Of a DNA stretch of 64,000 nt, positions 1 through 2,747 are shown one piece after another. The translations under genes were made by a program, and so were the position numbers. The stretch is taken from contig PBSN01000002.1 in the NCBI GenBank assembly GCA_002726235.1, positions 7,061-71,060 of the forward strand, in the 5' to 3' direction. Numbering within the stretch: position 1 is the first letter of the stretch; each line of letters opens with the position of its first letter. This DNA comes from Nitrospiraceae bacterium (GTDB lineage: Bacteria; Nitrospirota; Nitrospiria; Nitrospirales; UBA2166). The notes under the pieces were generated by a model. The model saw only the letters and a list, made by a program, of their open reading frames with translations, did not search any database and had not been told where the DNA came from.

Positions 1-2
1 CT

Positions 3-79
3 GCCCCCGTAGCTCAGTCGGATAGAGCAGTGGTTTCCTAAACCGCGTGTCGCAGGTTCGATTCCTGTCGGGGGCGCCA
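3..79 (+). tRNA. tRNA-Arg (anticodon CCT)
   Basis: The cloverleaf is complete. The acceptor arms are GCCCCCG (3-9) and CGGGGGC (69-75), with discriminator G76 and an encoded CCA at 77-79. The D stem is GCTC/GAGC, the anticodon stem GTGGT/ACCGC encloses the loop TTCCTAA, and the T stem is GCAGG/CCTGT. The anticodon CCT reads the AGG arginine codon. The 3' half from position 32 onward recurs at 1840-1887, so this gene appears to be the intact side of an integration site. Confidence 0.97.
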
Positions 80-191
80 ATCTTCTCAATGACTTACGAA
101 ACGCTCACCTTCTCCACATCGTCAGGAATTCCGGTTTTAGTCACGGTTGGATTCACATCACGAGTGATAGCGCAACTGGGGGCAGATCGCC

Positions 192-1214
192 TTATTTCAC
201 CGCTTGGTAGACAGCCGGGTTTTCCTTTCCAGTGACATTCAGAATACCCACTGCGCCCTTATCAATACGAAAGATGGAATGATCCACCAGAATGTAGCTT
301 CCGGGAACGTCCACGGTGAATTCTGCGACGGAGGCGCCTGCCGCGGGAACGGTGGTGGTTTGAACACTTTCGAGCGGACTGGCCGTCAACGAACCCTCAT
401 GATATACACGGTCAAAAATCTCTCCGATAATATGCCACGAGGAGACAAGATTCGGACCAGCATTCCCGAAATACATCCGGATGCGATTGCCCACCTTTGC
501 CTTGAGCGCGCCATCGCCTGTCAGTGATCCCACACTTCCATTGAATACAACGTACGTCGGATGTTCCGCTGCTCCCTTTGCTTCATCAAAATGCTGAAGT
601 CCCTTTGCTCCGAACTCCCCTGTCGTGTAGAACTCGCTTTGTAAAACATAGAACTCCTTATCGACAGGTGAAAGGCCACCTTCCGGTTCCACGAGAATCA
701 TGCCATACATGCCATTGGAAATATGCTCTGGAATGGGGGCCGTCGCACAATGGTAAATGTAGAGACCAGGGTTCAACGCCTTGAAACGCGCCACTTTTTC
801 TTCTCCTGGCTCGGCTAACAGCGAAGTCGCGCCTCCTCCCGGACCAGTCACCGCATGTAGGTCGATGTTATGTGAGTTTTCACTGCCCTTGGCATTCTTG
901 AGATGTAATTCGATCGTATCTCCGACACGAACACGAATCATGGGCCCCGGAACCTGTCCATTAAACGTCCAGAACTCATACCGGGTGTCACCATGCTCGT
1001 CTTTGACAAGAACGCCCTCCTTCTCGACCGTCTCCAGGTCGACACGAACAAGCGCAGGCGAGGCACGATCGATCTGTGCCGGCACTGCCGGAGCAAACGT
1101 GAGATGGGCAGATTCGGTCGCCTCATTCGCGAGAAGACTTGGAGAGGATATGAATATTACGAGAGCACACACACTTACAATCGATAGGATTGTATATAAT
1201 AATCTTCGTAGCAT
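192..1214 (-). CDS. nirK: Copper-containing nitrite reductase NirK, exported
   Basis: This periplasmic enzyme reduces nitrite to nitric oxide with a type 1 and a type 2 copper. The product has 340 residues: an N-terminal signal segment (about 1-30) and two cupredoxin domains. All copper ligands are visible. Type 1: His115, Cys156, His164 and Met169. Type 2: His120, His155 and His312. The catalytic Asp118 and His261 are also present. Short interdomain loops suggest the AniA-like branch. The ATG at 1214 is preferred over the GTG at 1217 because AGGAGG lies 8 bases upstream of it. The gene is alone, with no maturation or regulator gene nearby, and lies between tRNA-Arg and a copy of the tRNA 3' half. 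In nitrite oxidisers NirK is common but its role is debated. Confidence 0.93.
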   Translation of the reverse strand: MLRRLLYTILSIVSVCALVIFISSPSLLANEATESAHLTFAPAVPAQIDRASPALVRVDLETVEKEGVLVKDEHGDTRYEFWTFNGQVPGPMIRVRVGDTIELHLKNAKGSENSHNIDLHAVTGPGGGATSLLAEPGEEKVARFKALNPGLYIYHCATAPIPEHISNGMYGMILVEPEGGLSPVDKEFYVLQSEFYTTGEFGAKGLQHFDEAKGAAEHPTYVVFNGSVGSLTGDGALKAKVGNRIRMYFGNAGPNLVSSWHIIGEIFDRVYHEGSLTASPLESVQTTTVPAAGASVAEFTVDVPGSYILVDHSIFRIDKGAVGILNVTGKENPAVYQAVK

Positions 1215-1300
1215 CACCGTGACCTCCTAATCCGACATTTCCAAGATAACCCCATCGCGGGCCTCATTTGCTACTACAATACGCGAATCCACTCACAAAA

Positions 1301-1468
1301 TCATCGATCGTTCTGCTCAGCCCACGAGTGATCCTCGCACATCTTCATGTTCCGATCCAGGATGGCCTTGAACCGGTCACGCGGCACCACGAGATCCGCC
1401 ATCTGGAATGTGATGGATCGGGCATGCCTGACTGGCCTTACCCCAATAGTTGGTCCAGCGCGAGACAT
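1301..1468 (-). pseudogene. Probable transposase C-terminal remnant
   Basis: An open frame of 55 codons ends at a TGA at 1301-1303. Its middle reads like the C-terminal tail of DDE transposases of the IS1380 kind: a basic HAR motif, then a ITFQMADLVVPRDRFKAIL-type segment that resembles the usual FQ-AEVAVPR-LF-AIL tail. The rest of the transposase, its DDE residues and any terminal inverted repeats are not visible. The family assignment is from memory of that tail and is tentative. A decayed insertion sequence would suit the foreign character of the nirK island. Confidence 0.35.
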
Positions 1469-1839
1469 AATTTCGCACCCTTCACCCCCACTCTCCCTGC
1501 ACCACTACACAGGTCCCCTCCAACCCCTCCCAAAATTTCAAAAATAATTCACAAATGTGGAGCGCACCCTGGCCATAACCCCTCCAACTTGGATTGTGGA
1601 GTCGGGGTCACTTGGTGATGTGTAGAAGTTTGAAAGTGAATGATGGAAAGAGGGAGAGGGAGCTAAATCACGTCACGGTTTGAGTCACGGTTGGACTCCA
1701 GAAATACCGGTTTTGGTCACGGTTAGAGGAAACTAGGCCTTGCCACTCTGTGCAACAGGAAACGACGAAACGCCTTGGTAGCATTTGGTTTCTGTGTGAT
1801 GCTGTGGCACCATGTTGTCTGCTGTATCGAGAGAAGGTA

Positions 1840-1887
1840 GGTTTCCTAAACCGCGTGTCGCAGGTTCGATTCCTGTCGGGGGCACCA
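1840..1887 (+). repeat. Duplicate of tRNA-Arg 3' half, candidate attachment site
   Basis: Positions 1840-1883 are identical to 32-75 of the tRNA-Arg gene over 44 bases. The match continues to 1887 with one mismatch at the discriminator base (A instead of G) and keeps CCA. The sequence upstream of 1840 does not resemble the 5' half of a tRNA, so this is not a second full gene. A 3' tRNA end repeated at a distance is the usual footprint of tyrosine-recombinase integration. The enclosed segment is about 1.76 kb. Confidence 0.85.
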
Positions 1888-1970
1888 TCTATTATCATTT
1901 CCATCGTGTCCCACCTAGCGTCAGTCAGTGCCTCAGCGTGCGTCACTGTGACCTAGGACGTGTGATTGGC

Positions 1971-2747
1971 TCATTCAGATTCGAGCTTGCGCAGCAGAGC
2001 CTGTGCATCTGGCTTATGCCTGTGGAGCCAGAGCCACGGCTCCTTTGGCTTCGTTGTACTGAGAATAAGTTTCGCCTGATTTGCTGCCAAGTCAGGCTTC
2101 CCAGATTCATAATGATAGTAGGCTAAAAGCAGGCGAAGCCGTGTAGATGTGGGATCAACATCAACAGCTTGTGTGAGATAACCCTCAGCTTGTTTCTTGT
2201 TTCCTTTCAATAATACCCGAAGAGGTGCTGGAACTTCGTTGAGCAACATTCCCATCATATTGAGTGATCGAGCATGTTTCGGCTCTAAGGCCAGTGCTTG
2301 CAAGAGATGTTGCTCCAACTCAAACGGCATTGTGGGTAAAATTCTCCAAAAGGGCAGTTGCGTTGCCACAAGTCCTTTCGTCGCCGCAAACAGAAAATGC
2401 GCTTCGGCATTGGTTTCATCAAGTTCTAAAGCCAGACTTGCTGCAGCTTGACCACACCGATACCATTCGGCTTTTCCCTCTTCTAGCAAACCTCCCAGTT
2501 CCAGACAGGCCCACGCAAGTCGCCGATACGGCAATGCATATTCGGGACGCAACTCTATTGCCATACGATACAACGAAATAGCCTGTTCAAGTGCATCGGG
2601 ATAGGATGGGGTATCTCGGAGTATCTGCTCTGCACGGTCAATCCACTCCTGTGCAGATTGACCAGCATAGGTTGTTGTACCAATCCCCACAAGCCACAAC
2701 AACAGAACCACGATAACGCCACATTGGCGATACATCGTCCAACTCAT
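1971..2747 (-). CDS. Exported TPR-repeat protein, TatT-like
   Basis: A 258-residue protein with an N-terminal hydrophobic segment (about 8-28) ending in a possible signal-peptidase site after TTYA. The rest is helical TPR-like repeats, e.g. residues about 55-75, 105-125 and 145-170, with the A-x-x-L-x-P pattern. The FLFAATKG stretch resembles the TatT family of periplasmic TPR proteins linked with TRAP transporters, but no TRAP genes are in the window, so I infer only a periplasmic scaffold. The start overlaps the stop of a short upstream frame (2744-2839) as ATGA, suggesting coupled translation. No partner gene is recognised nearby. Confidence 0.7.
   Translation of the reverse strand: MSWTMYRQCGVIVVLLLWLVGIGTTTYAGQSAQEWIDRAEQILRDTPSYPDALEQAISLYRMAIELRPEYALPYRRLAWACLELGGLLEEGKAEWYRCGQAAASLALELDETNAEAHFLFAATKGLVATQLPFWRILPTMPFELEQHLLQALALEPKHARSLNMMGMLLNEVPAPLRVLLKGNKKQAEGYLTQAVDVDPTSTRLRLLLAYYHYESGKPDLAANQAKLILSTTKPKEPWLWLHRHKPDAQALLRKLESE

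Follow-up and report, generated by a model that had tools for sequence, protein, structure and literature searches.

A copper nitrite reductase gene, nirK, was found as the sole intact gene of an island of ~1.8 kb lying between tRNA-Arg(CCT) and a copy of the 3′ half of this tRNA. We consider the island to be, very probably, a CIME-like integrase-less derivative that keeps both of its putative att ends. The island is an integration footprint that has lost its integrase; its cargo segment has passed between species, occupies two different tRNA sites and has its breakpoints at short repeats. As to how the island moved, comparison of the sequences leaves about even chances for an integrase acting in trans, as opposed to exchange into a resident island. 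The window analysed is a stretch of 64 000 nt (G000:C2:7061-71060) from a MAG, designated here G000, which is 90.65% complete and consists of 27 contigs; it was compared with congeners G001, G002 and G003 (UBA2166), all members of the genus being represented by fragmented MAGs.

The repeat that bounds the island had been noticed in an earlier note made from the letters of the window; positions 32-75 and 1840-1883 are indeed identical over 44 bases, and the near identity that the note saw through position 1887 is broken by a single base (76 G / 1884 A). An exact 44-bp repeat within 64 kb cannot be a product of chance. On comparing both copies we saw no similarity 5′ of 32/1840, thus the copy at 1840 is a tRNA 3′ half, from the anticodon stem-loop on. 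Neither ARAGORN nor Rfam calls a tRNA at position 1840, and Rfam gives the tRNA alone as an RNA element of the island. A tandem tRNA array, the alternative raised in the earlier note, is ruled out, as the copy at 1840 has no tRNA 5′ half. The note had also proposed a search for the 44-bp core elsewhere in the genome; with window positions 1-2200 as query no further copy was found in G000. Among the tRNA surroundings compared in G000, only tRNA-Arg(CCT) and tRNA-Arg(TCT) have a 3′-half copy on the same contig. At the tRNA-Arg(TCT) gene (G000:C15, L009, c6661-6737) we observed a 274-bp scar with an integrase-tail-like remnant and a degraded 3′-half copy.

Table 1. Features of the nirK island and its target site; positions are those of the window
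Feature	Position	Strand	Remarks
Target tRNA-Arg(CCT)	3..79	+	32-79 is the putative attL copy of the repeat; called by ARAGORN and Rfam RF00005
Left-end module: tyrosine integrase remnant (3′ part, in frame), ending in NPTVTKTGIPDDVEKVSVS and a stop	80..160	-	Homologous to in-frame tails beside tRNAs
Candidate left arm sites	128..148	+	ATTCCGGTT at +49 and GTCACGGTT (140-148) at +61 from the tRNA end
nirK	192..1217	-	Copper-containing nitrite reductase, TIGR02376
nirK upstream region	1218..1470		~98% identical in the G003 island
Stretch partly common to other elements (G001 C27, C177, C34)	1471..1665		blastn blocks of 78-88%
Candidate right arm sites	1672..1724	+	GTCACGGTT at 1672, 1684 and 1716; degenerate ATACCGGTT at 1704
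Right-end spacer, arm sites to putative attR	1725..1839		89% to the G001 same-tRNA island, 72% to the G003 tRNA-Met island
Putative attR, displaced tRNA-Arg(CCT) 3′ half	1840..1887	+	47/48 identical to 32-79

The earlier view that there is only nirK and non-coding sequence between the repeats holds as far as intact genes are concerned; however, an integrase gene has its 3′ end in positions 80-160, and positions 1471-1840 make up a right-end module common to other elements. Tails homologous to 80-160 were observed in frame beside tRNAs in G001 (L045, L174), G002 (L049) and G015 (L057), with comparable integrase ends at tRNAs or tRNA 3′ halves in L049, L057 and L174; at tRNA-Arg(CCT) of G001 the counterpart of 80-160 closes a longer open frame that ends in FGKGTNPRTSVPQNEPVSIPTVTKTGITGDMEKAGIA and a stop. 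Given this homology to integrase ends in relatives, the left end of the island keeps the last ~18 integrase codons, joined to the nirK segment at GTCACGGTT; the loss of the recombinase, suspected in the earlier note, is thereby borne out, as these codons are all that is left. The GTCACGGTT repeats are candidate integrase arm sites, judging by their position and conservation: the left positions recur in elements at other tRNAs throughout the order, and the right cluster (repeat family D1) is kept beside 3′ halves of other tRNAs. Window positions ~1640-1840 recur at other loci, each time followed by a tRNA 3′ half, that of Arg(CCT) in G001 C177, a Phe-like one in G001 C27 and that of Met in G000 C19 and G003 C53; weaker matches to the right-end module were seen in further Nitrospirales genomes, several of them adjoining other tRNA 3′ halves. 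No recognised gene was seen in positions 1471-1665, which sit just inside the right repeats and may have a role as an origin, a transfer site or a packaging site.

Checks in relatives, as proposed in the earlier note, gave an empty site, a second nirK island and a nirK divergence at odds with that of core genes. In G003 tRNA-Arg(CCT) is unoccupied (L042): it is followed by an HU gene, with no 3′-half copy and no nirK, and the TPR gene that comes after attR in G000 and G001 is missing as well. The nirK segment of G003 is found in tRNA-Met (L041), together with its own 44/45 copy of the tRNA-Met 3′ half. In G001 an integrase end lies at tRNA-Arg(CCT) (L045); the right end that goes with it, comprising attR and the TPR gene, is on another contig (L043). 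The tRNA-Met site of G001 is occupied by a ~12-kb element whose integrase is broken. The nirK genes of G000 and G003 are 99.4% identical with dS of 0.012, while dS in six neighbouring core genes of the same two genomes is 0.51-0.78, a mismatch that indicates recent transfer. The suggestion in the earlier note that we deal with an integration footprint carrying nirK as a single-gene cargo is thus well supported by the integrase tail, the empty site and the recent transfer.

The segment common to G000 and G003 begins at the left GTCACGGTT repeat (140) and ends at the cluster of right repeats (~1724). Along the two islands identity goes up from ~70% to 95-100% at window position 140, is 98.2% over the 443 bp of 1218-1660 and drops after ~1720; therefore the common segment starts and stops at the GTCACGGTT repeats. 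Beyond these limits the identity of the two islands is only ~50-75%. The ends of the island in the window are nearest to those of the G001 island at the same tRNA (81% on the left, 89% on the right), with G003 further away (73% and 72%).

One base pair does not fit easily. The anticodon stem has G in both G000 copies and A in the empty tRNA of G003; a single integration event with a G003-like tRNA as target would not leave this difference, which counts against the explanation that we prefer. The fragmented state of the MAGs and the missing TPR gene at the empty site of G003 are further points against it. In terms of pairing (window 32-49 versus L042 5498-5515), the island-bearing tRNA has G-U, as against A-U in the empty tRNA of the congener; the G is common to G000 and G001, and a 3′ half delivered by an element may have been its source.

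Some tRNA genes are bordered by integrases on the other side. In G003 an intact integrase (L041 3163-4257) ends 21 bp upstream of the tRNA-Met 5′ end, on the side opposite to the nirK island, and no 5′-half copy of tRNA-Met was seen up to the contig end. The tRNA-Arg(CCT) of G029:C6 is flanked on both sides (L052 8012-8050, 17898-18998, 19010-19086; L053 11138-11182), having upstream a 5′-half copy 11 kb away and an integrase ending at the tRNA 5′ side, and downstream a 3′-half copy ~12 kb away with a second integrase; this arrangement suggests that an element also integrated on the 5′ side of the tRNA.

With respect to the origin of the cargo, island nirK and the native nirK of G002 group together in the tree with support of 100/100. 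The native gene of G002 is intact and adjoins a gene for a BaiN-like flavoprotein; in the native locus of G001 nirK is reduced to 106 aa by an internal deletion; the native gene order of G003 has the neighbours but no nirK, flavoprotein gene or a TPR gene that belongs there. This comparison covers G001, G002 and G003, most of the flanking genes being missing from the G000 assembly. The intact, decayed and deleted native copies, taken together with the island copies, indicate that native nirK is disappearing from the genus as an island copy spreads. The other nirK loci found in the search had no tRNA within the flank compared, with the exception of L116, which is the G003 island itself.

The repeats define a wider family of elements. 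The pattern GTCACGGTT-N3-GTCACGGTT is present in 48 of 196 Nitrospirales genomes, with no occurrence of the reversed-pattern control. As drawn from the well-resolved ones among twenty regions around repeat-pair sites, the family layout consists of a tRNA, a convergent integrase, 5-9 kb of genes, the right repeats and a tRNA 3′ half that is perfect or nearly so; the left repeats lie within the integrase 3′ end (at +48/49 and +60/61 from the tRNA), and the right ones at about -167/-155/-144 bp from the tRNA 3′ half. The targets include Arg(TCG) and Lys(TTT), with Thr(CGT), Gly and Met at other loci. Among the family genes are those for a tyrosine integrase, an HTH_17 excisionase-like protein, a DnaB/Toprim helicase-primase and a YafQ-type toxin (TA), with defence-like cargo (SIR2, AriA/AriB-like, AAA_13); no relaxase was seen among the family proteins scanned, a part of the total. 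Loci with defence-like cargo include L248 6724-8493, L260 5748-7938 and L250 8236-11737 (SIR2/PDC-S65, AriA/AriB-like, PDC-S06, NucC-like nuclease). A further possible integrase-less member is a ~9-kb island at tRNA-Met in G084:C27 (L210 732-9886), with an exact 3′-half copy and right repeats, in which an integrase was not found.

An integrase-bearing member is also present in G000, seemingly split over two contigs and carrying DUF3631 and DUF5681 genes: an intact integrase (C8:212-1342) lies by tRNA-Met, and the right end with the matching 3′ half is at C19:12285-12438. This integrase sits at a different tRNA and has diverged repeats (ATCTCGGTT) in its tail, so that its action on the nirK island is uncertain.

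In the explanation that we prefer, an ancestral island would have lost its integrase and gained nirK from the genus's own lineage, and the segment bounded by GTCACGGTT repeats would then have spread among species. In a circular form, the right spacer, the tRNA 3′ half and the integrase tail (~220 bp) would make one block outside the repeats; swapping this attP block for that of another element would retarget the island to a different tRNA. For such movement an integrase would have to be supplied in trans, e.g. by a relative, such as the intact one at C8:212-1342 in the same genome. A bolder version, which we think unlikely, takes the stretch between the GTCACGGTT repeats as the mobile unit proper, so that cassettes would plug into interchangeable tRNA-specific end modules and use the integrases of relatives; a lone gene could then change its tRNA by exchange of the ~220-bp attP block at the repeats.

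The main rival fits the sequences about as well as an integrase in trans combined with attP exchange. A resident integrase-bearing element at tRNA-Arg(CCT), as in G001, could have had its inside replaced by the nirK segment via homologous or short-homology recombination, in which case nirK was never moved by site-specific recombination; we regard such a history as quite possible, if short of an even chance. It concerns the mode of movement, and the integrase-less reading stands with it. The ends of the island in the window are most G001-like while its inside is near-identical to that of the tRNA-Met island, as replacement would have it, and the right module offers up to ~330 bp at 88% homology for exchange; on the left side, however, the common part is the repeat and a few bases, which is little for homologous exchange. 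Replacement inside a resident island and an attP swap in a circle give the same final sequence, so the data cannot separate them.

It is improbable, in our judgement, that the island integrated once, decayed in place and is immobile by every route. The island has no intact integrase, an integrase of Arg(CCT) type was not seen in G000, and the 274-bp scar at tRNA-Arg(TCT) is a sign that decay does occur in this genome; yet in two species, and at two tRNAs, the nirK segment recurs together with its integrase-tail junction at a dS of 0.012, which means that movement continued after the integrase was lost. A misjoined repeat or nirK, produced by assembly or binning, has to be considered when all genus members here are MAGs. 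We find it hardly credible, as the left junction (secG-tRNA) matches G003 and the right junction (attR-TPR gene) matches G001, and the junction of integrase tail and nirK is seen again in an independent MAG, the right flank of which agrees with G001.

CIMEs are elements that have no integration and transfer genes and keep attL and attR; they are decayed ICEs or IMEs and often stand in tandem with them (PMC5704250). The nirK island resembles them in keeping putative attL and attR (the 44-bp exact repeat), in having its integrase gene reduced to the last ~18 codons and in being devoid of transfer genes, with nirK the sole gene recognised in 1.8 kb. It differs in that transfer genes have so far not been identified in the parent family, and in that the tRNA-Arg island stands alone with one gene, its cargo segment occurring at two different tRNAs. 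In Dehalococcoides, ssrA islands carry respiratory-enzyme cargo between an RNA gene and its duplicated 3′ end, and 15 such islands with no integration module were proposed as possible cis-mobilizable elements (PMC3146451). In view of this precedent a respiratory enzyme on an island with no integration module is not unprecedented; still, the Dehalococcoides islands have a serine recombinase, the single target ssrA and tandem arrays, unlike the nirK island with its tyrosine integrase remnant, varying tRNA targets and nirK as cargo. Tycheposons are bounded by tRNAs, have a tyrosine recombinase, carry nitrogen-related cargo and measure 4-200 kbp (PMC10872708); compared by description, the 1.8-kb nirK island, with only the last recombinase codons, falls outside them in size and in recombinase. 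Virus-encoded nirK is described as an auxiliary metabolic gene (PMC8115048), which is similar to the nirK island in having nirK as mobile cargo and different in that the island has no viral genes. We rejected a virus-borne nirK, as no relative of nirK or of the integrase was present in viral contigs; the exact GTCACGGTT repeat pair was not found in viral contigs either. The parent family is apparently undescribed within the literature that could be searched; no reports of such elements in Nitrospira were found in the open literature, a result that is weak evidence for their absence. New within the same limits of search are the element family, the occurrence of nirK as its lone cargo and the combination of one cargo with two sets of ends, each specific to its tRNA.

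The nirK gene is a widely used denitrification marker, and its patchy distribution is usually ascribed to loss and transfer, with the vehicle not visible. Here the vehicle, an empty site, a second location and decayed native copies are all visible within one genus. The island is also a compact and testable example of an integrase-less element whose cargo moved after loss of the recombinase, and of putative attachment-site exchange; the simple DNA pattern of the candidate arm sites would allow listing of such islands across Nitrospirales.

The product of island nirK scores 344.1 bits on TIGR02376 (cut-off 296.3). Its N terminus is signal-peptide-like, and the likely start is the ATG at 1214, with AGGAGG ahead. 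The best solved relative is AniA (1kbv), to which the type 1 and type 2 copper motifs align (HNxDxHA, YHC, H..M, SSWH and DHSIF), motifs that provide the copper ligands in NirK. Between island nirK and the G002 copy dN is 0.13 and dS 1.86, values indicative of purifying selection, which suggests that the island NirK, a predicted nitrite reductase, is functional.
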